The notes beneath the pieces are model-generated. The model ran no database searches. It had not been told where the DNA came from and saw nothing but the letters and a program-made list of their open reading frames with translations. Shown here in pieces: positions 1,623 to 49,211 of a stretch of 49,211 bases of DNA; the stretch's first letter is position 1; every line of letters begins with the position of its first letter. Position numbers and translations under genes: made by a program. The stretch spans positions 1 through 49,211 of IMG/VR virus record IMGVR_UViG_3300048784_000047; one strand, given 5' to 3'. The DNA comes from a virus.

Positions 1623-1651
1623 ATCATACCACGGGCGGCGGGACAATGCAA
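1623..1651 (-). promoter_or_regulatory. Sigma70-like promoter, leftward
   Basis: On the minus strand TTGCAT (1651-1646) is followed by a 17-bp spacer and TATGAT (1628-1623). It lies upstream of the leftward gene starting at 1484, with an untranslated leader of roughly 130 bases. The same TATGAT -10 box occurs in two other leftward promoters of this phage. Confidence 0.65.
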
Positions 1652-1676
1652 CAAAGCAATCCATCATTGCATGTAT

Positions 1677-2003
1677 GACTGTCACTACCATCAGCACTAT
1701 GAATACCACTACCATCACAACTACCTGTACCTGTACCTGTATCAATACACAATACGGCGTCCGTTCATTCCCGGTACACGTTATCCCCAGTGCCTTTCTC
1801 TCAGTGCCTTTCTCTCAGTGTCTGTTTGTCTCTTTCTATCTAAGATAAAAAAAAAATTATATAGAACAGAGAAGAGAGCCACGGCACTGGGACACAGGGG
1901 ATATGAGTCAGTAGGGATATGAGTCAGTGAGAATCATAACGTGTACCGATAAAACAACGGACCCCGTATTGTGTATTGATACTGGTGATGGTAGTGGCAG
2001 TCC
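1677..2003. repeat. Long imperfect inverted repeat with A-rich apex
   Basis: The core arms are 1741-1784 and 1936-1980. They pair over 17 bases, then 7, then 13, with one mismatch and a small internal loop. Outside the core, 1678-1699 pairs imperfectly with 1982-2003. Inside it, CAGTGCC and CTCT-rich stretches at 1788-1838 partly pair with 1862-1890. The apex carries ten consecutive A residues (1847-1856). The left arm contains ACCTGT three times (1723-1740) and a 14-base unit AGTGCCTTTCTCTC twice plus a partial copy (1789-1820). The right arm contains a 15-base repeat twice. Origin, cruciform binding site or structured RNA are all possible. Confidence 0.75.
1898..1928 (+). repeat. Direct repeat, 15 bp x 2
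   Basis: The unit GGGATATGAGTCAGT occurs at 1898-1912 and 1914-1928 with a period of 16 bp. It sits inside the long inverted repeat. It could be an iteron-like protein-binding site; two copies are too few to be sure. Confidence 0.7.
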
Positions 2004-2034
2004 TAGTATTCGTACCCCTCTCTCAGCCCCTAGA

Positions 2035-2064
2035 GCCCGCTAGGGTGTCAGTCCCCTAGCAGGC
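2035..2064 (-). terminator. Strong hairpin downstream of a leftward gene
   Basis: Bases 2035-2045 and 2054-2064 form an 11-bp stem with one non-Watson-Crick position and an 8-base loop. It begins 18 bases past the stop of the leftward gene ending at 2082. No U-tract follows, so it may be a processing or stabilising hairpin rather than an intrinsic terminator. Confidence 0.5.
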
Positions 2065-2081
2065 TATCCTCAGTTCCTGGA

Positions 2082-2621
2082 TTATTCCTCGGTCATAAAC
2101 CCTTTCAACGTGGTGCTTACATCCACCTTGGTATCCGCGCGCTCCAACCTCAGCCGGCTGATGATCTCAATCACTTCTTTCGACTTCCTCAGCGCATCCA
2201 GATGTGCCTTGATTTTCGGATTATCCTTGGCCTTTTCCATCTGTGCCCGGACCTTATCCTCGCTCTCTCCAGACAGCTCCATGAGTGCTGCGAGAAACAG
2301 TCCGCCGTCCCGTCCCTGCCCGCCGCCGGTCATTTTCCAGGGATTCGTCGGCTCACTCAGCCACTCAATCAGTTCAGCCACGTTGTCGTATTTCAGTTTC
2401 TCGCGCTGTTCCTCGGTCCAGCCCTGCGTTTGTTCCCAGGGTATCGCCGTCGCATTGCTCAGCCGTTGAGTCATGCCATGAAAAGCTGAATGCCGGTATT
2501 TAATCGGGTCCAGCCAATTCATGTCAAAAATCTGTTTGCCAAGCTTCGGGAATCCCAGATGGATCTCATCACCCACCCACTCTGTCGTGACAACGCTATT
2601 CGCAGCTCGTTTAGCTCTCAT
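2082..2621 (-). CDS. Early protein, 179 aa, apparent distant paralogue of the 45600-46241 product
   Basis: The start is the ATG at 2621 with a GGAGACT site nine bases upstream. I do not recognise a named family. The stretch DGGLFLAALMELSGESEDKV at about residues 105-124 aligns by eye with GTSVLIKALIEFSGKTVEEV in the protein encoded at 45600-46241. Both proteins continue with a lysine-rich helix and a closing isoleucine/arginine helix. Gene order and size suggest an abundant early protein acting on DNA or RNA, but that is inference. A sigma70-like promoter lies 84 bp upstream and the gene appears to be transcribed alone. Confidence 0.8.
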   Translation of the reverse strand: MRAKRAANSVVTTEWVGDEIHLGFPKLGKQIFDMNWLDPIKYRHSAFHGMTQRLSNATAIPWEQTQGWTEEQREKLKYDNVAELIEWLSEPTNPWKMTGGGQGRDGGLFLAALMELSGESEDKVRAQMEKAKDNPKIKAHLDALRKSKEVIEIISRLRLERADTKVDVSTTLKGFMTEE

Positions 2622-2704
2622 AATAGTCTCCAGTTTAGATGTTAAATAGTCCGGCCGACAACTCGGTCTACCGGATGAGTCAGAATCATCTAACCCATGT
2701 GTGC

Positions 2705-2733
2705 ATCATACACCAGTCATTCCCTCGGTCCAA
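2705..2733 (-). promoter_or_regulatory. Sigma70-like promoter, leftward
   Basis: On the minus strand TTGGAC (2733-2728) is followed by a 17-bp spacer and TATGAT (2710-2705). It lies just upstream of the leftward gene starting at 2621. Confidence 0.65.
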
Positions 2734-2848
2734 TACCGTTTTAGCATAACGCTCCGTCGCCGTTATAACCGTTGGTTATGGTCCACGGTGCTGCCGGGAC
2801 AGGAGAGCATTGCACTGCACCATTGCTGCCTAGGCAACTATATGATGC

Positions 2849-2894
2849 AGCACGGCACCGAGCGGCCGCCCCGAGCGTAGGGTGCTGCCGTGCT
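2849..2894. repeat. GC-rich inverted repeat
   Basis: AGCACGGCACC at 2849-2859 is complementary to 2881-2894 apart from a 3-base bulge. The loop contains GCGGCCGC. Neither flank has a U-tract, so it is not an obvious intrinsic terminator. Confidence 0.5.
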
Positions 2895-3099
2895 CTAGTG
2901 CTGCCGCGAGCTAGTGTACTACCCAGCTACAACACTCCAACGCCTGCCGCCGGCTCGGTGACTGACAGACCCCGTGTGACTGACAGAACCCGCGCGGCTG
3001 ACCAACCCCTCAGCCAAAATACCCCGGTAGGGGGGAAAACTTTTTCCAGCGCGCGAACGAGCTTAATGCTCTGTCAGAAATTTTCGACCTCGTGATAAC

Positions 3100-3131
3100 G
3101 TGAACACGATATGATAGTATAATGTGAACAC
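3100..3131. promoter_or_regulatory. Palindromic 32-bp operator, copy A
   Basis: Two GTGAACAC half sites (3100-3107 and 3124-3131) flank exactly 16 bp that contain TATG and TATA. A perfect TATAAT (3118-3123) abuts the second half site. On the opposite strand TTGGAT, 18 bp, TATCAT is also possible. It is one of five copies in the genome and lies at the divergence point of the two arms, so it probably controls one or both directions. Confidence 0.75.
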
Positions 3132-3137
3132 AATATC

Positions 3138-3201
3138 CAATGACTTTATCCAATGACTTTATGTAAAATGTGCAATGACTATGGTAGGATTTACAATGAC
3201 T
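3138..3201 (+). promoter_or_regulatory. Four CAATGACT boxes upstream of the rightward promoter
   Basis: CAATGACT occurs at 3138-3145, 3151-3158, 3173-3180 and 3194-3201. The last two are 21 bp apart, about two helical turns, and the last runs into the -35 box as CAATGACTTGGTTGAC. The same pair with the same 21-bp spacing precedes the leftward promoter near 45430. These are probably activator or repressor sites. Confidence 0.7.
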
Positions 3202-3204
3202 TGG

Positions 3205-3234
3205 TTGACACGGGAATTAGACTTGCGGTATGGT
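3205..3234 (+). promoter_or_regulatory. Promoter of the rightward virion arm
   Basis: TTGACA (3205-3210), an 18-bp spacer and TATGGT (3229-3234) stand 34 bases before the start codon chosen for the first rightward gene. The -35 box is embedded in the conserved CAATGACTTGRTTGAC element. An ATG at 3175 in the same frame would lie upstream of this promoter, which argues against that start. Confidence 0.65.
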
Positions 3235-3267
3235 CGGGCGCGTGGCGAGAAAAAGGACTGGAACGTG

Positions 3268-3870
3268 ATGGAAGTTAATCTGTTGGATCAGCTTGCCGCC
3301 GACCATGCCCGGCCCCGTAGCGATCCCGAGGCTGAGGCGGCCGCCCAGCTCCGCCTCGCGCAAAGCGAAGGCTACAATCCCAAGCCTTTAAAGCCCTCGA
3401 TTCAAAAGATCAATTACTCCCATGATGGGATGATTAACATTATTCTGGCGAATCGTGGGATTTCGCAGAACGCTCTCGCAGCCCACTTTGGCTACACCGC
3501 CGCCTGGGTCTCAACCGTAATGGCTTCAGACGCGTTCCAGGCACGTCTTGCCGAACGCGCGGCTGAGATCGAAGACCCAGTCCTCCGGGCCTCGATTGAA
3601 GATAATCTCAAAGGCCTCGTCTCGCGTTCGATGGAGATACTGAAAGAAAAGCTCAGTGCTCCTGCGTCGAGTATTCCTGATAACCTGGCCCTGCGGACCC
3701 TGGAACTCAGCACTCGAGCCTTGGGCTTTGGTGCTCGTGAATCTACTGTCAACGTCACCGTCAACCAGGTTGAGAATCATCTCGAACATCTTGGCGGCCG
3801 CCTTACCGACCTTCTCCACCGTAAACGGGCGGAAGCCCTACCCCAGGAGCCTGCTGATGCGTCCGACTAA
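3268..3870 (+). CDS. Putative small terminase subunit
   Basis: The chosen start is the ATG at 3268, with an AAAAGGA site upstream, giving 200 residues. The frame is open to 3175, but that start would precede the promoter. The centre (about residues 55-95) carries a helix-turn-helix (RGISQNALAAHFGYTAAWVSTVM) followed by a long helical region (about 95-150). This is the usual order in phage small terminases: DNA binding, then oligomerisation. The protein would recognise the packaging site and recruit the large subunit encoded at 9271. It is the first gene of the rightward arm. Identification is by architecture and position; another DNA-binding role is possible. Confidence 0.65.
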   Translation: MEVNLLDQLAADHARPRSDPEAEAAAQLRLAQSEGYNPKPLKPSIQKINYSHDGMINIILANRGISQNALAAHFGYTAAWVSTVMASDAFQARLAERAAEIEDPVLRASIEDNLKGLVSRSMEILKEKLSAPASSIPDNLALRTLELSTRALGFGARESTVNVTVNQVENHLEHLGGRLTDLLHRKRAEALPQEPADASD

Positions 3871-4545: not shown

Positions 4546-5423
4546 AGTACCTTGTTCTCCTGCTATCCCTCTTTCCTTTGGTGCTGGGGGCTCAAACTAC
4601 TGGAAACGACGTTAATGGCGGGGTAGTCCAGATTCTCCCTGGCGTCGGCATCAGCCTCTCTCCGACGAACGGGATCGGGAATGTGACTGTCAACACCATA
4701 GATACCGGAACAATCAGTTTGATCACGTCGCCCAACTCCACGCTGAGTATCACCAACGCCTCAGGCCCGACGACCAACATTGACATTCCGACTTCCTATC
4801 TGGCCAGCCCGCCGACGATTGGCGGCACCACGCCTGGAATCGTCAACGCCACTACTATCGTTGCTAATGGCAGTGCTGGTACCACGTCGATCGCGTCAGG
4901 GGTTTTAAGATTCAACTATAACGCAGGAGTAGATGCTGTCGGTATCGGTACAGGTACGACAACTGGCACCGTTAACATCGGCGGCGGCTCTAACGCAATC
5001 ACGATCAACGCAGCCGCTTCGCTTACTGTCTCCAACCTAACCACTGGAACGAATGCGGATTTTGTCTGCCTCTCCGGCTCGGGGGTGTTGCTTATCCAAG
5101 CCTCCGCCTGTACTATCTCCAGCCTGAGATTCAAGGAAGATTATCAGCCGGTCAAATTTTCTACCGCCATCGCGGAAGTCAATTCCCTTGAAATCCTTTC
5201 CTATCGGATGAAGCCCGCCGGCAACCCTGACCCTAATGCAACCTTACGCCAAACAGGCCTAATTGCCGAGAACGTTGCCCAGGTTGCCCCCGAGTGTGCG
5301 ATCTACGAAGACGACTTGAAAACTCCCAAATCCTACCGCCAGGAATGCATCATTGCTCTCCTGGTGAAATCTGTCCAGGAACAGCAGAAACAAATCACTT
5401 ACCTCCGCCGCCATGCGCGTTAA
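4542..5423 (+). CDS. Fibre protein with signal peptide and C-terminal S74 chaperone domain
   Basis: The start at 4542 gives 293 residues. Residues 1-18 form a typical Sec signal peptide (MKYLVLLLSLFPLVLGA, then Q). Residues 22-51 (NDVNGGVVQILPGVGI onward) are repeated in the next fibre gene. The middle is a Gly/Thr/Ser/Asn-rich fibrous region. Residues about 190-290 are a peptidase S74 intramolecular chaperone domain: SSLRFKED carries the expected Ser193-Lys198 pair, followed by RQTGLIAENVAQVAPE. In phage fibres this domain assembles the trimer and then cleaves itself off. A signal peptide on such a protein is unusual. Confidence 0.8.
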   Translation: MKYLVLLLSLFPLVLGAQTTGNDVNGGVVQILPGVGISLSPTNGIGNVTVNTIDTGTISLITSPNSTLSITNASGPTTNIDIPTSYLASPPTIGGTTPGIVNATTIVANGSAGTTSIASGVLRFNYNAGVDAVGIGTGTTTGTVNIGGGSNAITINAAASLTVSNLTTGTNADFVCLSGSGVLLIQASACTISSLRFKEDYQPVKFSTAIAEVNSLEILSYRMKPAGNPDPNATLRQTGLIAENVAQVAPECAIYEDDLKTPKSYRQECIIALLVKSVQEQQKQITYLRRHAR

Positions 5424-7467
5424 GACCTTAGTCGTTGCTTCTGCCTGGACCGCCGGCTTCGGCATCTCGGGGTGGCTAGCCTACGCCCAGAACTCCTCGA
5501 ACGACGTTAACGGCGCTGTTTCTCAAATCATCCCTGGGACTAACATTTCAATCAGCCCGGCGAACGGCAAAGGCCAAGTCACCATCAATGCTTCGGGGGG
5601 ATCTTCGGGAAGCGGCAATGCCACCACGGTTAATGGAGCTACGGTTCCTGCGTCGTGCGGCGGGGCTGTTGGAACGAATGCATCGAGTCAGTTGACTTGC
5701 TTGTCAACAAGCACGCTTAACATCAGCGGCACGGCGGCAGGACTAAGTGGAACCCCGGCTCTGCCGAATGGTACGACTGCATCTACCCAGTCTTCAGGTG
5801 ACAACAGTACAAAGGCTGCCACAGACGCCTTTGTCTATAACCTTTTGTCCTCGGGTACACCTTCGATTTTGCTGACGAATGGTAGCGGATTGCCTGCTAC
5901 AGGGATCACGGCAGGTGCATTGATTTCAGGGGTTACTGCGGCCTCGGGCGGCGCGCTTGTAGGTATCTCGGGCACTCAGACTCTGACCAACAAAACAATG
6001 GACGGAGGTTCGAATACCTTTACCAACATCGGGCTTTCCAGCCTCGGGCAGTCCTCGACTGCCGCGGTGCTGGGATACCCTGGCGGCTCATCTACCGCCC
6101 CCGAGGCTTTTACCGAAGTCCCTTCGGGCGTAACCCTCGACGTATCGAGCTTGACCCAAACCTCCAGCAGCGATGTTATTTCGATCAACTATCTCCCAGG
6201 CACAGCCACATCTTACCCTGCAGGCTCCCATACAGTTTCCGGTGCAGACAACGGCACGCTGATCTACAACACAGCGTCTTCTGCCTCGACCTTTTCCCTG
6301 CCCCCGATCAACGCAGTGGCCCCTTACGTGCTGCCCAGCGCGTTTCAATCTGTCATGGCAAACTTCGCTAACACGGCAGTCACAACCCTGGCAGGCATTC
6401 CTAATGTGTCTCCAGCGATTGCTGCCCCTACCCTCAACCAAGCTGCAGGACCTATGTACCTGGGTCCTTTGGGTTGGTCGTTCACGCTTACTGATGGTAC
6501 TGCCAGCCCCGGCAATTACGTGATCCTCGAAGGAGGCGGCTATCAGTTCAACTCCGCTGGCGTCGCGGTGTGGACGAACGCACTGATTGCCTCGGGATTC
6601 GTCCCCAACTCGCCGGCGTGTGGCCTGACAGGAACCGGACGCATTGCCTCGTATACGGGCGGCGGACTGACCTTCTGCACCAATGGTAACGGTGCTGGCT
6701 CCCTAGATGCCTCTGGAGACTTGGCGATCACTGGCTATCTGGCTGCCCAGAGCTTCGTGAGCGGCACCGTACTGGTCCCGACTTCGAGCGCAATCCCAGC
6801 CACCGCCGGCCTCAACTACCCTACAACCTACGAACTTGGCTTCGGTGTCGACGGCATCCAGGCTGGCTATATTGGCCCCGCAGGCATACTTAACTGGAAC
6901 TATGCAGGCATATTTACAGGCCTGCAGCTAACCAACCTGACAACCCCTGGCATCATCGAGAACAACTCATCAGGCACTCTCGGTACTTCAACCTCTCTAC
7001 CCAGCAACACCACTGCAACCACACAGACAACTGGAAATTCCAGCACCTATCTCGCCACGACTGCTTTTGTTCAAAACACCATAGCAGCCCCTGGCGCGCT
7101 AGGTGTCAGCATACCGAATAGCGGATCTCTTACTACGTTGATTGTGACCCAAAGCATTGCTGCGTCTTCGTCCGCTTCGCAGCCTAGCATAGCAATCAGC
7201 GGCACGAACTGTGTTAGCGTAGGATCAAAGCTCGGCGGCATGATCGCTGGCTCTATGCGGGTTGCAACAAATGGTTTAGGCTCTTGCGGAGCCACCATCA
7301 CAATCAGCGGCTTGCCTGCTGTGACCAATGAATACAAGTGCGCAGGTTCTGATGAAACCAATCCTGCCGGCCTTGTACAGAGCGGCGGCTCTACCACGAG
7401 CTGCTCCCTCACAGGTAGTGTATCCACCAACAATGATAAAGTGTCATGGCTAGCTATCGGTTACTGA
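5413..7467 (+). CDS. Large fibre-like protein with signal peptide, 684 aa
   Basis: The start at 5413 overlaps the previous gene. Residues 1-25 form a signal peptide ending AYAQ. Residues 28-59 match the start of the mature upstream fibre (NDVNGAVSQIIPGTNISISP), which suggests a shared attachment domain. The rest is low-complexity Gly/Ser/Thr/Asn with repeated TTxxTQSSGDNST-type motifs near residues 115-135 and 535-550 (STKAATDAFV, STYLATTAFV), typical of phage tail fibres. The C-terminal 90 residues have three Cys and beta character. Host-surface binding is the likely role. Confidence 0.7.
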   Translation: MRVKTLVVASAWTAGFGISGWLAYAQNSSNDVNGAVSQIIPGTNISISPANGKGQVTINASGGSSGSGNATTVNGATVPASCGGAVGTNASSQLTCLSTSTLNISGTAAGLSGTPALPNGTTASTQSSGDNSTKAATDAFVYNLLSSGTPSILLTNGSGLPATGITAGALISGVTAASGGALVGISGTQTLTNKTMDGGSNTFTNIGLSSLGQSSTAAVLGYPGGSSTAPEAFTEVPSGVTLDVSSLTQTSSSDVISINYLPGTATSYPAGSHTVSGADNGTLIYNTASSASTFSLPPINAVAPYVLPSAFQSVMANFANTAVTTLAGIPNVSPAIAAPTLNQAAGPMYLGPLGWSFTLTDGTASPGNYVILEGGGYQFNSAGVAVWTNALIASGFVPNSPACGLTGTGRIASYTGGGLTFCTNGNGAGSLDASGDLAITGYLAAQSFVSGTVLVPTSSAIPATAGLNYPTTYELGFGVDGIQAGYIGPAGILNWNYAGIFTGLQLTNLTTPGIIENNSSGTLGTSTSLPSNTTATTQTTGNSSTYLATTAFVQNTIAAPGALGVSIPNSGSLTTLIVTQSIAASSSASQPSIAISGTNCVSVGSKLGGMIAGSMRVATNGLGSCGATITISGLPAVTNEYKCAGSDETNPAGLVQSGGSTTSCSLTGSVSTNNDKVSWLAIGY

Positions 7468-8945: not shown

Positions 8946-9271
8946 TGCCTGGTGGTCACTTAAGTTTCCAGCCCAAGCGACAAAGTGAAACGTGCTATAC
9001 TTCCCAGCCGTTTGATTTCATCGCCTCGCTTCAAGTCGGAGAAACGATCAATTCTTGCACGACCACTGCCACGGTTTACTCTGGAACTGATCTAGTCCCT
9101 GGAAACATACTCTCTGGCTCTCCTGCTATAGTGAATTCTACCCAGGTGATTCAGCTAATCACCGGCGGCGTGGTAGGTGTGATCTACGAAATCTCTTGCA
9201 AGATCATCACCAGCCTTGGCCAGAGTGTGGTGCTGGCTGGATTCATGGCTATCATTCCGGACCTAACTTGA
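8945..9271 (+). CDS. Small virion protein, 108 aa
   Basis: The start at 8945 shares its A with the upstream TAA. The layout is common for small phage virion proteins beside the terminase: a Q/K-rich N-terminus, then FDFIASLQVGETINSCTTTATVYSGTD, then ITGGVVGVIYEISCKIITSLGQ. The GGVVGxxY...I.TS.G string resembles beta-sandwich proteins found in fibres or head-tail junctions. The stop overlaps the large terminase start (TGATG). The exact place in the virion is unknown. Confidence 0.6.
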   Translation: MPGGHLSFQPKRQSETCYTSQPFDFIASLQVGETINSCTTTATVYSGTDLVPGNILSGSPAIVNSTQVIQLITGGVVGVIYEISCKIITSLGQSVVLAGFMAIIPDLT

Positions 9272-10731
9272 TGAAGCTCACAGCTGAAATGGTCGAAGCG
9301 TTCTCGGGAGTTTTCCTTTCGCCACTCTACGATGCTGCTTCAGCCACCCCAGACTTTCACCGTGAAGGATGGAAGATCTACTGCTCGGACTGTCCGGCCG
9401 CCGCTATCGCTGCGCCTCGCGGCCATGCTAAGTCCACTGCATTCACCCATGACTACGTTCTGGCAAATGTCTGTTTCCGCACAGCCCTCTACGTCATCAT
9501 CATCGGCGCTTCCGAGGAAATGGCAATCGAGCATCTCGGAGACATTGCCAATGAACTTCGTGATAACGAAGAACTGATCCGTGAGTTCAAAATCAAAGGG
9601 TTTGTTCAGGAACAAAAAACTGACATCATTGTTGAGTGCCAGGACAGGCACCAGTTTAGGATCCTTGCTCGCGGTGCTGAGCAAAAAATTCGTGGTCGCA
9701 AGTGGCGCGGCCGCCGGCCCGATCTGATTGTAGGAGACGACCTTGAAGACGACGAGCAAGTCGAAAACAAAGACCGCCGTAAGAAATTCCGCAAGTGGTT
9801 CTTTAGAGCTGCTAAACAGGCTCTCCGTGTCGGCGGCAGAATCCGAGTACATGGCACTATCCTGCACAAAGACTCACTACTTAATCACCTTTGTCACAAC
9901 GACCAGTGGGTTAGTAGAGTTTACAAAGCACATCGGTCCTTCAGCGACTTCAGCAATATCCTCTGGCCTGATAGGTTCACTGAAGATGATCTGAGGGATA
10001 AGCGCCAGGAGTTTATCAACGAGGGTGATTCTTCAGGTTATTCCCAAGAATTCCTGAACGATCCTCGGGATGACGAGGGTAATTATCTTCTGGTCGAACA
10101 GTTCCTTCCAATGAAGCCCGAGCACCATGAGGAATTTCACAAGGTCTGCGTGGGTGCCGACTTCGCGGTTTCAAAGGCTGATGCGGCCAATCGAACCTGC
10201 TTCGTGGTCGGCGGCAAGACCATCAGCAATTTCATCGACATTCTTGACGTTCGGGTTAATCGCTGGGATTCAAAGGAGTGGCTCGATGAAATCTTTGCTG
10301 TCCACGCTCGATGGAATCCTTTTTGCTGGTTTGTGGAAGACGGGGTTATCTGGAAAACCGTGTGGCCCTTTATCCGTGACGAGATGCAGCTGCGTGATAT
10401 TTTTATTGACTTTGTGCCTACTCTCCCCGTTAAGGATAAGGCGACCCGAGGACAGACGCTGAGAAAGCGAATGAAAGCCGGGGGCTGTAGGTTCGACAAA
10501 GAAAGCTCGTGGTACGACGAATATCAGGAAGAAATGCTCGACTTCTCTGCCACGCAGGAAGCCACCCTGGATGACCAGTTCGATGCTACTGTCACCCTGG
10601 CTCGGGGCTTTGATGGCATGATCCTCGAAGACGAAGACTCCATGACTGAGGACGAGGAAGAATTCATCTTCAATTCGCTGGCAAAGAAAACCTCTACTGA
10701 ACACGGCCGTTCAAAGATCACGGGATACTAA
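9271..10731 (+). CDS. terL: Large terminase subunit (packaging ATPase and nuclease)
   Basis: The start at 9271 overlaps the upstream stop; the product has 486 residues, normal for the family. Walker A is APRGHAKST (residues 48-56) and Walker B is DLIVGDDLED (151-160), preceded by the RGRKWRGRRPD stretch seen in P22/T7-type terminases. The C-terminal RNase H-like nuclease shows the expected acidic residues in VGADFAVS (Asp297), FVEDG (Glu356) and DQFDAT (Asp438). It pumps DNA into the prohead and cuts concatemers. The upstream putative small subunit and downstream portal fit this role. Confidence 0.93.
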   Translation: MKLTAEMVEAFSGVFLSPLYDAASATPDFHREGWKIYCSDCPAAAIAAPRGHAKSTAFTHDYVLANVCFRTALYVIIIGASEEMAIEHLGDIANELRDNEELIREFKIKGFVQEQKTDIIVECQDRHQFRILARGAEQKIRGRKWRGRRPDLIVGDDLEDDEQVENKDRRKKFRKWFFRAAKQALRVGGRIRVHGTILHKDSLLNHLCHNDQWVSRVYKAHRSFSDFSNILWPDRFTEDDLRDKRQEFINEGDSSGYSQEFLNDPRDDEGNYLLVEQFLPMKPEHHEEFHKVCVGADFAVSKADAANRTCFVVGGKTISNFIDILDVRVNRWDSKEWLDEIFAVHARWNPFCWFVEDGVIWKTVWPFIRDEMQLRDIFIDFVPTLPVKDKATRGQTLRKRMKAGGCRFDKESSWYDEYQEEMLDFSATQEATLDDQFDATVTLARGFDGMILEDEDSMTEDEEEFIFNSLAKKTSTEHGRSKITGY

Positions 10732-33523: not shown

Positions 33524-33545
33524 CCGCATATTGTGAACACATTAT
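33504..33545. promoter_or_regulatory. Palindromic operator, copy E, at the convergence point
   Basis: ATAATGTGTTCA (33504-33515) and TGAACACATTAT (33534-33545) form a perfect 12-bp inverted repeat with an 18-base spacer. The 8-base half sites (33509-33516 and 33533-33540) are again 16 bp apart, and the right inner CATA is kept. It overlaps the last codons of both converging genes, so here the element might act as a transcription roadblock or bidirectional terminator. Confidence 0.65.
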
Positions 33546-34762
33546 TCCTTCTTCTTCGCCATTAAAATCCCCTTCGCAGCGTCGAATTGAATCAGCCCTG
33601 CACGGACTGCCCCGAGGACAATGCTTTCAAAATCCTTTACAAATGGAAACGCTGTGTGGACGTAAGCGTAGGCAGTTCTGTAATCCACCGGGGAATTCTT
33701 GTTTACGAATTCGATAAAGCGATCGGCTTGGATTGATTCCTCGGTGCGGCCGATTCGCGCAAAGACCTTGGGCATGTCTTGCTCGAGGTCAGTGATCATG
33801 GTGTTGGCGAGCTGGAGATCCTCAGGGAGCAAAATCATTTCGTCGCGGGACGAGGCAGCAATGACCATTGCGAGCTTGTGAAGATGGGTTTGCTTGCGAG
33901 CTAGGTAGCCTGAGAAACGCTCGTCCTGGAGAAGCGGCGGCGGCGAGGCATAGTGGTGCTGATACCATTCCTCACCCCAGATCCGGGCAGATTCGGATAG
34001 CTGGTAAGGCCCGGCCAGCGTGTTCGCGATGTGTTCGAGGTCCTGAGCGAGCTTGGTCTGTACGTCGGTCATTCCCTTGGGGATGTGATAGATGGGATAA
34101 GCGACGAGCTTTTCCTTTTGATCAGTATAGACGAACAGACACCTGGACGTAAACCCCCCTCCGATCACGTATTCGGGGAAGTTTCCAGCGATCCAGCTCG
34201 GAGTCGTGCAGGCGATCAGATTGATCCAAGGATTCTCGATCGCGTCGCTCCCTGAGTTCTTCGTAACCTTCGAGAACCCTCCTTGCTTGGAATCCCAAAG
34301 CGTAACCAACAGATCAATCATTTCTCGATCTGTAGGATTTACCAGGTTCCCGAACTCAGAACTCTCTAATGTAAGTGCGCATTGGGTGTACCAGTCTTCT
34401 CCGATTGAGAAGGATTCTCGGGCAGCTGCAAAAGCAGAAACAAGGGCAGGCCATGTAACGATATCCGGCCCAAAGACAATTCCAGGCACCTTGCGCAGGA
34501 TATCCATTGCAATAGCGACTGTAGTTGACTTCGAGACGATGCCAGGAGGAGCGACAAAGATAATGTAATGATTGACGCACCATCTGTAATAACCCATAGA
34601 TAACCAGACTCTGCGTCGTAGCGCACCAGCGATGGCAGCCACTCCGGACCAGAAGTGCATTCGTTTAGGAGCTTCTGAAAATCCTGCGTATTGGATATAT
34701 GCCGAGAGCCAGTCATCGTAATTTCTCACTCTTTGTAACTCCGTTAATGACAATCTCCCCAC
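33542..34762 (-). CDS. DUF3987-like P-loop ATPase (helicase/primase-like)
   Basis: The product has up to 406 residues from GTG at 34762; an alternative GTG at 34729 has a better GGAG site. RMHFWSGVAAIAGALRRRVWLS is the usual start of DUF3987/YfjI-like proteins, and HYIIFVAPPGIVSKSTTVAIA is its Walker A region with Ser in place of the last Gly. GGFTSRCLFVYTDQKEKLVAYP matches the conserved arginine-finger-like part of the family. These ATPases often replace or assist a replicative helicase in phages. It follows the DNA polymerase gene, overlapping it by 19 bases. Confidence 0.65.
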   Translation of the reverse strand: MGRLSLTELQRVRNYDDWLSAYIQYAGFSEAPKRMHFWSGVAAIAGALRRRVWLSMGYYRWCVNHYIIFVAPPGIVSKSTTVAIAMDILRKVPGIVFGPDIVTWPALVSAFAAARESFSIGEDWYTQCALTLESSEFGNLVNPTDREMIDLLVTLWDSKQGGFSKVTKNSGSDAIENPWINLIACTTPSWIAGNFPEYVIGGGFTSRCLFVYTDQKEKLVAYPIYHIPKGMTDVQTKLAQDLEHIANTLAGPYQLSESARIWGEEWYQHHYASPPPLLQDERFSGYLARKQTHLHKLAMVIAASSRDEMILLPEDLQLANTMITDLEQDMPKVFARIGRTEESIQADRFIEFVNKNSPVDYRTAYAYVHTAFPFVKDFESIVLGAVRAGLIQFDAAKGILMAKKKE

Positions 34763-37230
34763 GAAATTTCAGAAGTCTTTACACTGAAAGGAATGGTCAG
34801 AGGATCTTCGTACGGGACGACAATACTTCCGGCGGCTCGTTCAATACCTCCCCGCAGCTCGGGCATGTGATTAGGGTACTGGCCCGCCAGTGAATCATGG
34901 ACTTGGAGGAGAACTTGCACCTGGGGCAGGTCAGAATAAATCCGTCGCCAAATCCTGTTGATGACGATGGAGACGGTGGACTGAGGTCCCCAGGCGATGG
35001 CTTCGGGGATGATGGAGTCAAGGCGATCGAAAATATACCACCTGTATCCAAATTTATTTTCCACGTATCGCTTGGATAGGACTTGAGCTTTAACTCGATC
35101 ATGCCATCGCTTGATACCTGGATGCGCACCAAACCATAAGTTTTGGGCGCGTTCAACCTCTCGGACAGTTCGACCAGTATTAGCTGCCATAGTTCTTGGC
35201 TGGCCGCCGTAATTCGTTCCATGTATAAAGGTTTTTGCAAATTCACGTTTAGCACTCCTAGGACCACGATGGTCCTGGTACTTGGGATGGGTTTCTACCA
35301 GCTCGTCGAGAGGGGGCGGGTCCTTAGCGTCGAGGGAATAGACATTCAAAAGATGGATATCAACCCCCATTCTCAAGGCGGCTTTGAGCATCGGGTCGTC
35401 GGCTTCCCAGACAACTACCTGTAAATCCGCTCGGTCCAAGTCTCCGTCAAAGAAGGTGAATCCTGGATCTGGGATAAACATGGATCGCAGATTTGGATAT
35501 TTATATGGATCTCCAAGCCCGGCGGTAGTTCCTCTAGAAGCTGCTTTGCCCAGCGATTTACTCTTAAGCGAAGGTATGTTTTGTAAGTTGGTACCAGATC
35601 CAAAGGCATTTTCACTCGATGAGAGCCGATAAGTTTTGGGGGCTGACTTTCCACTGGCTGATCCTCCGATGTTGTAAGCACACCGCATTCGATCGTCTTC
35701 GTCGAGGGGGGCTTCGAGAAAGTGGGAGAGAAAGATATTGAGGGTTCGGATATCTGAGATTGCGTTGACGATTGGGCGCAGGAGAGGTTCGCGCTTCACA
35801 ATAGTTTGAAGTGCGTCGTCGTTGAGAGTCGGCCGGCCAGGGACTCCTTTCTTTGCCCTGGTCATCACTGGGGGTTGATTGAGGTCCTTATAGAACAGAG
35901 TGTGCATTTGCTTGGGGGACCCAGGGTTAAGTGGGTGTCCGAGAACGTCCAGAAGGAACTTTTCACGGCGTAAAATCTCCCCCCGGACTTCAGCTGTAAG
36001 CTCAGCCCTTCGCTGTAGGTCGATTCTAACTCCAGTCTGCATGGCACGCAGAACGGGCCAGAACATGGATTGTTGGAATGAGTGGACTGTTTCGAGGCCA
36101 AGAGTTTTAACAAGAGAGAGTTCAGTTCGGCCGACTTCATCGGTGTACACGCAATCTAAGCAGTTGTAATTCCATAACTCATTTTCTCCGTGTTCTTTCT
36201 CGCTCCAGTTCTTTCCTTCATCCTTCCAGTAAACGTAGTATTGACAATACATGGAAGCCTGGAAAGCCAGGCTCTTCGGTTGATCTGAGAAGATCGAGTG
36301 CTGAGAGATCATGCAGTCCTGAACCACATTTGGAACAAAATGCCAGTGGCGATAGGTGTACTGGGCGTCGTATAAGATATTTTGTCCCACAACTTCGGCA
36401 TTCGGATGCGTCAGCAGTTTCTGGAGCATCCATACTATTTCGGCTTCTTGGTCGGCCGACCAGTAATCACGAAAGCCTGAATAGATGAAAGGAATGCAGA
36501 TAGCTTCTGTAAGAGACCAGGAGAGACCGGCGCAGGCGATGTGGCCTCCTCGGGTTTCGAGGTCGAAAGATAAACGAGAGGGATTTCGCAATACCTTTCC
36601 ATAGAGTTCATCCAAGCAGCGTAGAGCTGTTCCAAAGTCTGGTCGGACAAGAAACTTCCACTCGGGTTTCGGGAAAGGCTTTCCGTTACGATACTGTCCT
36701 GCTCGACGGAGGTCGTGGATGACTGTTTTTCGCCAGGACCATTCTCTGAGCACGGCGGCGGGATGGATAGTTGGCACCACCCTGAATCCTGATCCCACGT
36801 CTCCAGACGTATGGAGCATTGATCCTCGCCACTTCGTAATTCCGCTATAGCCCGTAAGTGCCCACAGCGGGGTATTACCCAGAGCAATAATGATGCTAGG
36901 GTTGACTGAGGTAAGCTCGTTACATAAGCGTTCAACTCCTCGGATGACAGGAGGGAGTACCCAACGATCCCGGAATCTGGAGTGGGCTGGTGTGACATCT
37001 TTTTTGGACCTCGCGATAAAGTGATTTATGTCGTTTGAGGGAGGACGCTGGAAACAGACATTCGTGATAAAGCATTCGGAACGAGAGATGCCGGCTTCCC
37101 CGAGCATTCGGCTGAGTTCTTGGCCAGAGACGCCCTGAAATGGTCTGCCGATTCGTTCTTCGTCGTAGCCAGGGGCTTCACCCACGATCATGATTTTTGC
37201 AGGGATGGGACCTTCAGGGCGGCAGTCCAT
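34744..37230 (-). CDS. Uracil-DNA glycosylase / family-A DNA polymerase fusion
   Basis: The start at 37230 abuts the upstream stop (TAAATG). Residues 1-180 form a family 4/5 uracil-DNA glycosylase: GEAPGYDEERIGRPF (17-31) and HPAAVLRE (156-163). Residues 215-380 form a 3'-5' exonuclease (FDLET with Asp223/Glu225; VGQNILYDAQY; YNCLDCVYTDEV). The rest is a PolA polymerase: motif A with Asp597, O-helix KREFAKTFIHGTNYGG, motif C VHDS with Asp779. Unusual are His670 at the position equivalent to E. coli Phe762, Asp602 for Glu710 and Ser780 for the motif C Glu. It is the phage replicase with built-in uracil surveillance. Confidence 0.92.
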   Translation of the reverse strand: MDCRPEGPIPAKIMIVGEAPGYDEERIGRPFQGVSGQELSRMLGEAGISRSECFITNVCFQRPPSNDINHFIARSKKDVTPAHSRFRDRWVLPPVIRGVERLCNELTSVNPSIIIALGNTPLWALTGYSGITKWRGSMLHTSGDVGSGFRVVPTIHPAAVLREWSWRKTVIHDLRRAGQYRNGKPFPKPEWKFLVRPDFGTALRCLDELYGKVLRNPSRLSFDLETRGGHIACAGLSWSLTEAICIPFIYSGFRDYWSADQEAEIVWMLQKLLTHPNAEVVGQNILYDAQYTYRHWHFVPNVVQDCMISQHSIFSDQPKSLAFQASMYCQYYVYWKDEGKNWSEKEHGENELWNYNCLDCVYTDEVGRTELSLVKTLGLETVHSFQQSMFWPVLRAMQTGVRIDLQRRAELTAEVRGEILRREKFLLDVLGHPLNPGSPKQMHTLFYKDLNQPPVMTRAKKGVPGRPTLNDDALQTIVKREPLLRPIVNAISDIRTLNIFLSHFLEAPLDEDDRMRCAYNIGGSASGKSAPKTYRLSSSENAFGSGTNLQNIPSLKSKSLGKAASRGTTAGLGDPYKYPNLRSMFIPDPGFTFFDGDLDRADLQVVVWEADDPMLKAALRMGVDIHLLNVYSLDAKDPPPLDELVETHPKYQDHRGPRSAKREFAKTFIHGTNYGGQPRTMAANTGRTVREVERAQNLWFGAHPGIKRWHDRVKAQVLSKRYVENKFGYRWYIFDRLDSIIPEAIAWGPQSTVSIVINRIWRRIYSDLPQVQVLLQVHDSLAGQYPNHMPELRGGIERAAGSIVVPYEDPLTIPFSVKTSEISWGDCH

Positions 37231-42655: not shown

Positions 42656-43090
42656 TTAATCCTCTAAGGTTGGAAAATCATCCCAGCTATTCATCAATTC
42701 GTAAAACCGCCTGGTGATGGCGATGATTTCTTCTGGAGAATCTTCGAGCGGCCGACTGTCAGCGGAGAACTTGGGATGCAGCCAATAGTCGCCAAAGACG
42801 AGTTCCTCGCGGCAGGGGACCAGGCCTTCGGCGGCGGGCAGGAGCCTGCGGGCTGAAGGACTCAAACGATGGAAGTATTCTTGAAAATTGCCCAGGATTC
42901 CGGCTTCGCGGTGCTTGACCGTGATGATTTTTCCAGCAATCCAATTCTCTGGATTCGCATACGTCGAGACAGGGGCTTCGCCGCTCGACCAGCGTTTAGC
43001 CGAGTCCTTTCTTTGAGCTTCGAGTTCCATTTCTTTTTTTATGTCGCGGAACAACAGATCCAGGGGATTGAGATTCTTTAACTTTGACAC
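42656..43090 (-). CDS. Hypothetical early protein, 144 aa
   Basis: The start is GTG at 43090, with AAAGGAGACT upstream. The N-terminal 35 residues are basic (MSKLKNLNPLDLLFRDIKKEMELEAQRKDSAKRW split by acidic positions), the rest is mixed, with FHRLSPSARRLLPAAEGL and SPEEIIAITRRFYELMNSW helices. I recognise no family. The stop directly precedes the RHH-like gene start. Confidence 0.65.
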   Translation of the reverse strand: MSKLKNLNPLDLLFRDIKKEMELEAQRKDSAKRWSSGEAPVSTYANPENWIAGKIITVKHREAGILGNFQEYFHRLSPSARRLLPAAEGLVPCREELVFGDYWLHPKFSADSRPLEDSPEEIIAITRRFYELMNSWDDFPTLED

Positions 43091-43195
43091 GGGTAGTCTC
43101 CTTTAGTACAAAGTGTTCGATTGAAGTTTGTGACTCTCGCTGGTGGAGGTCAGTCATTAATCGTAAGTGTGCTGTGGTTTCCTCAGTGGTAGAAT

Positions 43196-43232
43196 CCCGC
43201 AGCCAATAGGGGGATTGGCCCTTGGCTGCGGG
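43196..43232 (-). other. Strong hairpin in the spacer of the early operon
   Basis: CCCGCAGCCAA (43196-43206) and its exact complement (43222-43232) form a perfect 11-bp stem with a 15-base loop. It lies in a 170-base spacer between 43091 and 43260 that I regard as non-coding. No U-tract follows on either strand, so it may be an RNA-processing site, stability element or protein-binding hairpin. Confidence 0.65.
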
Positions 43233-43260
43233 TTGTGTGAAAGGCCAGGACTGAGGGGCT

Positions 43261-43582: not shown

Positions 43583-44968
43583 TTAGCCCAAGAGACCATT
43601 AGGCATCATGCCGTAGACTGTAGTGCCATAGGAAGCAATCGGATTCCCTGTGCCTGTGGCAGAGCCGATGAGGTTATTATTATAAGCGGAATACGAAGGA
43701 TTGAACCTCCACCAGACAGTCCCGATTCCGTTGGTCTTCCCCCAGGAACCAGCATCCTGTGACCAGGTTGAACCGTTGGAAGGGTCACCGATTTCAGTAA
43801 CAATGCGAGCCAGATTGATGTTCTTGAGATTGGCGAATTCAGTCCACAGTCCGCCGCCTGTTCCGCTCCCAGGGGCAGAGACATTGTTCGAGTAAACGTG
43901 CCAGGTCATTGCCATCTGGGCAGGATAGCCCTGGGCGACCAGGGGGTCAACGGGCAGGTAGCCAGGATTGTTGTTCAAAAAGACGTAACCACCGTAAGGG
44001 TTGTCATAGGGGCTGGTGTAGCCGGAGCAGTTCAACAGGATGACGTTGTTGCCGCCGTTCGCTCGGACAGTGTTCATGAAGGTCTGACAATCACAGACCT
44101 GGTAATACCCGTTGGCGAGCTGGACGCTGGAGCCTGAGCCGATCGTCCCGCCGCCGGTTCCCTGGGTCACATCTGGACACTGATAGAGCTTGTACTGTTG
44201 GTAATTCGTCCCGCCTACGTTAGAGCCAAGGCAAATCCCCCAGATCGTGGCATCGGTTATCCCCCCAGATCCAATATAGATTCCGCCTGAAAAGTTTCCG
44301 TTCCCGCCAATGGTAGGTTCATTGTAAACTGTGAAAGCCACTCCTCCGTAGTTTATAGGCCCGTAGGTCGAGGTGGCTGTGCCGTTCGGAACCCCGAACC
44401 ATTCAGCGAAGAGCTGAGCAACCTGGATTCCGTATTTGTAATCCAGAATACAGTTCTGGTTGTTAGGATACCCTGGGTAAGCCCTGCCGCCGATCACAAT
44501 GTCAGGACAGTTGTTCCGAATCCCTATGCCGACAGTGTAACCCTGGCCCTGCATTATGGCGATGAAATCAGCCACGGACTGCATGTACTGAGTCCCGGTC
44601 TGAGAAGGAGCGTGGGAATTCCCGCTGGTGTCGTAGGTCGTCAGCCCAAGGCAGGCCGAGGTCGTTAGATAATGCTGGATGAACTTGGGCTGCCAAGCCT
44701 GGAACGGCTGAACATTAGGCTGAATAGCGCCAAGATTAGGATTAGCTCCCCAGCCATAGAGCTGGTTAGGCGCTCCGTTATACACCACGTCTTCGCGGCC
44801 GTCGACGTTCAGTCCAAAGGGCACAATGATCGACGAGTTCTGATCCCTGAAATTCCCCTGGGCGTCGGTCCAGATCTGCGGGCCTGAAGCAGTGGAAAAA
44901 GGCGGGCCTGCGATTACAGGCCCGACAGGTCCAAACTCGAAGATGGTTGGATTGGCTGGAGCGGTCAC
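43583..44968 (-). CDS. GH5-like (clan GH-A) glycoside hydrolase, 461 aa
   Basis: The start is GTG at 44968, six bases after the upstream stop and without a clear ribosome site, so it is probably coupled. The sequence shows the clan GH-A pattern: IIVPFGLNVDG at the N-terminal side of the barrel; VAFTVYNEPT with Asn216-Glu217 as acid/base; AMTWHVYSN with His357 and Tyr359; RIVTEIGDPS with Glu392 as nucleophile; and GTVWWRFNP with Trp419/Trp420. There is no signal peptide. It would cleave a beta-linked polysaccharide. It may be a virion-bound depolymerase made with the 44974-45372 protein, despite its place in the early arm. Confidence 0.72.
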   Translation of the reverse strand: MTAPANPTIFEFGPVGPVIAGPPFSTASGPQIWTDAQGNFRDQNSSIIVPFGLNVDGREDVVYNGAPNQLYGWGANPNLGAIQPNVQPFQAWQPKFIQHYLTTSACLGLTTYDTSGNSHAPSQTGTQYMQSVADFIAIMQGQGYTVGIGIRNNCPDIVIGGRAYPGYPNNQNCILDYKYGIQVAQLFAEWFGVPNGTATSTYGPINYGGVAFTVYNEPTIGGNGNFSGGIYIGSGGITDATIWGICLGSNVGGTNYQQYKLYQCPDVTQGTGGGTIGSGSSVQLANGYYQVCDCQTFMNTVRANGGNNVILLNCSGYTSPYDNPYGGYVFLNNNPGYLPVDPLVAQGYPAQMAMTWHVYSNNVSAPGSGTGGGLWTEFANLKNINLARIVTEIGDPSNGSTWSQDAGSWGKTNGIGTVWWRFNPSYSAYNNNLIGSATGTGNPIASYGTTVYGMMPNGLLG

Positions 44969-49079: not shown

Positions 49080-49211
49080 TTAGTCTCCTGTCTTTATGTC
49101 CTCAGCCATCGCATCGCGGAGCTTACTGAGGGAATCAGCCACCGCGTTTTCATCAATCCGGACTTGGTAATTCGCCGGGACTTTCTCCGACGATTCACCT
49201 TCAGTGATTAT
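49080..49211 (-). CDS. 3' part of the joint-spanning HTH gene
   Basis: This is the end of the gene listed at 1-298. The TAA at 49080-49082 closes the frame that continues from base 1, and bases 49085-49211 duplicate 1-127. It is the same gene and should be counted once. Confidence 0.85.
   Translation of the reverse strand: MITEGESSEKVPANYQVRIDENAVADSLSKLRDAMAEDIKTGD
49085..49211. repeat. Terminal direct repeat, copy 2
   Basis: It is identical to bases 1-127. See the first copy. Confidence 0.93.

Follow-up and report, generated by a model that had tools for sequence, protein, structure and literature searches.

It is a long-standing open question, familiar chiefly from T7 and T3, by what route a phage with direct terminal repeats makes the second copy of the repeat while its DNA is packaged. 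The mitochondrial light-strand origin, OriL, is a short stem-loop. For T7, a hairpin end on the concatemer (Chung, Nardone and Hinkle 1990, cited in PMC4281155 and PMC4925675) is presented in the citing papers as a proposed intermediate that helps to duplicate the repeat. In OriL priming takes place on an exposed single strand, at a T-stretch of fixed polarity within the stem-loop (PMC4256270), and the hairpins ssiA and ssiB of RSF1010 are strand-specific primer start sites used beside the mobile element's own primase (PMC4434180).

The DNA analysed here, referred to as the window, is a record of 49,211 bases which represents a complete phage genome and was assembled as a circle. It carries a long imperfect hairpin which, like the T7 concatemer hairpin as described in PMC4281155 and PMC4925675, would be fold-back DNA beside the direct terminal repeat of a short-tailed phage. 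It differs from the T7 hairpin, as far as those two accounts go, in having a stem of about 100 bp or more, a conserved place without a conserved sequence and an A/T run at the tip, and no T7-type RNA polymerase was noticed. A T-stretch of fixed polarity in a stem-loop is shared with OriL, but the stem is tenfold longer here and priming is putative. The likeness to the ssi sites lies in the hairpin DNA as such, whereas those sites are 40 nt long, sequence-specific and present once per strand, and no such motif was seen here. Searches of the open-access literature did not turn up any account of an element of this kind.

The hairpin in the window and its surroundings

The late genes are located on the plus strand and start with a small-terminase-like gene, terS (3175–3870), which served as the landmark for locating the element and whose own position agrees with the annotated small terminases of Caulobacter phage Kuura and Pseudomonas phage PaMx41; the large terminase is found at 9196–10731. 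The early genes are located on the minus strand, from 2621 across the record ends to 33.5 kb. The phage encodes a family A DNA polymerase (PolA, 34744–37230) and, adjoining it, a DUF3987 protein (33542–34762) labelled primase in PHROGs, as well as a Sak4-like protein, an exonuclease and a portal, and neither a TOPRIM nor an archaeal-type primase turned up among the genes searched. For the DUF3987 homologue in PaMx41 the annotation mentions an HHpred hit to archaeal Orc2. Positions 1–127 of the window are identical to 49085–49211 and several relatives have a similar exact end overlap (123–127 bases); this is an overlap of assembler length and no evidence of a terminal repeat.

The hairpin, about 330 bp (1674–2005), is situated between two minus-strand early genes, early gene 1 (2082–2621, function unassigned) and the next early gene (576–1484, without known family). 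Neither of the two gave a match among protein families, or a close relative when used as query against viral contigs. In one relative (G010) the early gene 1 family occurs in two copies, at 668–1054 and 5074–5307 (L045 and L049).

An earlier note, made from the letters of the window alone, had described a long imperfect dyad with further pairing blocks, a run of ten A at its apex, several tandem repeats and no gene in the region, and all of this was borne out. The core arms, 1735–1784 and 1936–1986, pair to 86% and a second, nested block outside them (1674–1706 with 1973–2005) to 85%, all given on the plus strand, and the run at the tip consists of exactly ten A (1847–1856), i.e. T10 on the early-gene strand. 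When folding the plus strand of 1660–2020 as RNA, as the note had proposed, a value of -139 kcal/mol was obtained (z -9.3, none of 100 shuffles as stable), and the minus strand of 1670–2010 gave -148.5 as RNA (z -10.1) and -80.1 as DNA (z -11.3). The dyad has an arm score of 69, compared with a mean of 18.8 (sd 2.7, maximum 34) at 700 random sites. The only open reading frame over it (1671–1922, plus strand, 83 aa) is unsupported, and a coding function was rejected. Neither the hairpin nor the genome showed sequence similarity to known phages.

The tandem repeats comprise three copies of CCTGTA (1724–1741) and two of a 14-bp unit (1788–1815) within the left arm, two copies of a 15-bp unit with a spacing of 16 within the right arm (1898–1928) and, in addition, two of a 24-bp unit (1674–1721). 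The note had likened such repeats to iterons, a comparison that had to be given up; they are slippage-type tandem copies inside the arms, two or three only, and no motif except the T-run is common to the window and its relatives.

Consensus scans, which were used for all promoter and terminator calls, identified a σ70-like promoter (TTGCAT-N17-TATGAT, 1623–1651, minus strand) immediately past the hairpin and pointing away from it into the early genes. Between early gene 1 and the hairpin there is a GC-rich, terminator-like stem-loop (2035–2064, minus strand), which is weak evidence of a terminator since it has no U-run.

Hairpins at the same place in related phages

Relatives were collected via DNA polymerase homologues, giving 31 viral contigs together with GenBank records. 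A plain minimum free energy scan of whole genomes found the element in some genomes only, and searching for A/T runs combined with alignment of the arms was sharper. The element was identified in 11 genomes, among them MW202489, Microcystis phage Mel-JY34, Kuura and Desulfofustis phage LS06, in all cases on the early side of the border between early and late genes and usually 0.3–2.2 kb from the first late gene. Whole-record scans showed that the hairpins of the relatives share no DNA sequence with the one in the window and that several of them adjoin weak homologues of early gene 1.

An alignment search with the small terminase yielded 80 loci, 42 of which include at least 2.5 kb upstream of terS. 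At an arm score of at least 36 a hairpin was called upstream of terS in 37 of these 42 loci and in none of 63 late-side stretches; in the five loci below the threshold folding around A/T runs also gave imperfect hairpins. The distance between these hairpins and terS has a median of 1.66 kb (10th–90th percentile 1.26–2.06 kb, range 0.17–2.35 kb). The element keeps its place relative to the terminase gene, and its orientation, too, is constant in dozens of related phages although the letters are not conserved. A long hairpin without a long T-run occupies that place in MW202554 and the archaeal virus vir526, and only a short one in 119X/PaMx41. No such element was found in Gordonia phage Yakult, MW202455, Tiera and the near-complete relative G021, nor a comparable hairpin in Vibrio phage VS-ABTNL-3, which has a 39% identical primase-like protein.

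The centre of the hairpin carries an A/T run, mostly 8–14 bases, and almost always the T stands on the early-gene strand: in 10 of the 11 genomes with the element, and, taking the largest run, in 28 of 32 clusters, where A stands on the plus strand of terS. These 28 clusters have the stem-loop with a single-stranded T-rich loop of fixed polarity by which OriL- and ssi-type sites can be recognised. The run is T on the terS strand in the remaining four, and in three of them it is just 3–4 bases long. In Desulfofustis phage LS06 the polarity is reversed, with A17 on the early strand (L087, 43246–43262). In the first genomes scanned, a run of eight or more A or T was almost always the sign of a long hairpin, and in the terS-locus set a hairpin centre was found no further than 130 nt from 38 of 50 such runs. 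In 9 of 11 genomes no other 30-bp stretch of the genome is as unstable as the tip; the window is one of these, its A10 tip having rank 0 when all 30-bp stretches are ranked by duplex stability. In relatives that can be aligned the tip is also the best-kept part of the hairpin.

Base changes and transcription signals around the hairpin

A transcribed RNA under selection for pairing is expected to show many more G-U than A-C mismatches. To compare the two, the arms were aligned with a strand-neutral score, using one hairpin from each of 42 clusters, since counts from consensus folds of pairs of relatives omit broken pairs and thereby overstate pairing. On the early strand 145 G-U and 139 A-C mismatches were counted (p 0.77), and 320 of 604 mismatches across clusters are transversions. 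Among one-sided changes between close relatives there were 58 to G-U, 40 to A-C and 100 others. Compensatory changes, which the earlier note had asked for, were seen only in part: of the changes affecting both sides 46 kept a Watson-Crick pair, two became G-U and 47 broke the pair, so that pairing is kept in bulk but loosely.

The signals for transcription are unevenly placed. Following the direction of the early genes, 21 of 36 clusters have a sense terminator upstream of the hairpin and one has it downstream, while σ70-like promoters lie downstream in nine of 36 and upstream in one, and the spacer with the hairpin therefore seems to be untranscribed. No Rfam family matched the dyad at gathering score. 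The element is most likely a cis-acting DNA signal rather than a gene or an RNA.

Genome ends and the possible working of the element

For Kuura, direct terminal repeats of 606 bp have been determined by PhageTerm (PMC9959647), and the record contains a repeat of exactly 606 bp beginning at 43208. The Kuura hairpin has its core arms at 43046–43075 and 43219–43248 and its A-run at 43141–43152, and the start of the repeat is thus inside the loop, between A-run and right arm and 55 nt from the run, which places the mature left end of this phage in the hairpin loop. The chance of a terminus that close to the run is roughly 0.3%. Kuura is a distant relative, and its hairpin, with a score of 28, is the weakest in the set. 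The other boundary of its repeat is located 144 bp ahead of the annotated small terminase gene. Metagenome contigs of relatives tend to end at that place, with 16 ends 0–500 nt upstream of terS versus three downstream. Near the hairpin, the distance between contig end and A-run is 63 nt for L125, whose end is on the side of the run where Kuura has its terminus, and 93 nt for L161; L142 and L167 end within the spacer between terminator and hairpin, which could also reflect failure of the assembly. By analogy with Kuura and the contig ends, a direct terminal repeat is predicted in the window from 55–63 nt past the A-run (about 1.91 kb) to the gap before terS, with approximate boundaries 1912–3100.

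The hairpin is quite possibly, but by no means surely, a DNA element that lies where the terminal repeat begins on the early side and works like the concatemer hairpin of T7. This leading explanation was beyond the view of the earlier note, as it comes from the relation to the terminase gene and from the repeat boundary in Kuura. Besides the place linked to terS and the Kuura terminus in the loop, the contig ends, the untranscribed spacer and the lack of an RNA-like mismatch signature point the same way. Further in its favour is MW202796, a phage with a related large terminase and a DnaB-type replication module, in which the corresponding place is taken by an AT-rich palindromic stretch, although this stretch is trivially palindromic because of its TA-repeat. 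On the other side, a single relative has experimentally derived ends, the records of Mel-JY34 and MW202489 carry no information on theirs, contig ends near a strong hairpin could be failures of assembly, a stem of 100 bp is far longer than processing would seem to require, and the unstable tip with its fixed T polarity suits a priming site at least equally well. Long stretches that are palindromic through TA-repeats were noted upstream of the large terminase in phages whose terminases are related, at L177 around 9690 (MW202796 around 18689) and L176 around 8420 (QDWS535 around 48541).

In the proposed working the element would be a long fold-back whose oligo(dA)·oligo(dT) tip melts easily, located at the early-side boundary of the direct repeat of a linear chromosome, and the mature left end of packaged DNA would be produced there from replicating concatemers. 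The A/T tip would open or be nicked, the strand would then fold on the long stem, and hairpin-primed or strand-displacement synthesis would copy the terminal repeat, giving two copies per unit. Processing by terminase and nuclease near the loop would leave the left end. We infer the same arrangement for the window phage, together with every one of these mechanistic steps.

The main rival, a replication origin or single-strand initiation site as the earlier note had suggested, is rather unlikely but survives. According to this explanation the tip opens, a strand folds and the exposed oligo(dT) loop is primed by a primase or an RNA polymerase, in the way of the mitochondrial light-strand origin, where priming on a stem-loop T-stretch is established (PMC4256270). 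The instability and good preservation of the tip, the T-run of 8–14 bases fixed on the early strand and the DNA-like, untranscribed nature of the element all agree with it, as does the presence of PolA and of the DUF3987 protein, annotated as primase in homologues. In 26 of 36 clusters the local GC skew passes from C-rich on one side of the centre to G-rich on the other (p 0.011), and the skew switch looked for by the note was present in part, with the cumulative minimum at most 2.2 kb away in 6 of 11 genomes; skew is, however, confounded with the switch between early and late gene direction, and the minimum of the window is at a distance of 7.7 kb. The relatives compared have no iterons or common binding motif, and the Vibrio phage mentioned above lacks the hairpin in spite of its primase-like protein. 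The formation of ends and the origin may also be one system. That a single fold-back with an oligo(dT) tip both sets the end of the chromosome and starts synthesis by hairpin priming, constituting an undescribed class, is a doubtful proposition; if true, duplication of the terminal repeat and the start of replication would be a single event, and since function would rest on shape and tip, the sequence would be free to drift across a large, mostly uncultivated group of phages.

It is improbable that the hairpin is a structured non-coding RNA or processing site made early in infection, be it a long double-stranded RNA, an RNase III site or a decoy. The very strong RNA fold, the arms still pairing despite drift and the slight excess of G-U among one-sided changes speak for it, but the long structured transcript considered in the earlier note is disfavoured by the balance of G-U and A-C across clusters, by terminators that precede the hairpin with promoters mostly behind it and by the lack of an Rfam match. 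More improbable still is a transcription device, an insulator or supercoil-sensitive cruciform separating early gene 1 from the main early promoter; the order terminator, hairpin, promoter fits such a device, which leaves the Kuura repeat boundary, the fixed T polarity and the stem length unexplained. A functionless quasi-palindrome maintained by template-switch mutation would account for the tandem duplications and rapid turnover in the arms and for the many mismatches with transversions among them, but it is hardly credible when phages without DNA similarity agree in position, run polarity and instability of the tip and none of the control regions has a hairpin. Telomere-type hairpin ends of the N15 kind were set aside because of the imperfect arms and the fixed A/T polarity.

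An element conserved in shape can be computed in dozens of phages, of which cultured ones such as Kuura and Mel-JY34 make it directly testable, and it offers a way to predict genome ends and the borders between early and late genes in uncultivated phages. As for other genes of the window, the late gene at 5413–7467 (684 aa, without family) shares mainly a 35-residue stretch, at 74% identity, with its relatives, and the early gene at 43583–44968 weakly matches glycosyl hydrolase family 5 in Pfam, which is odd for an early gene.
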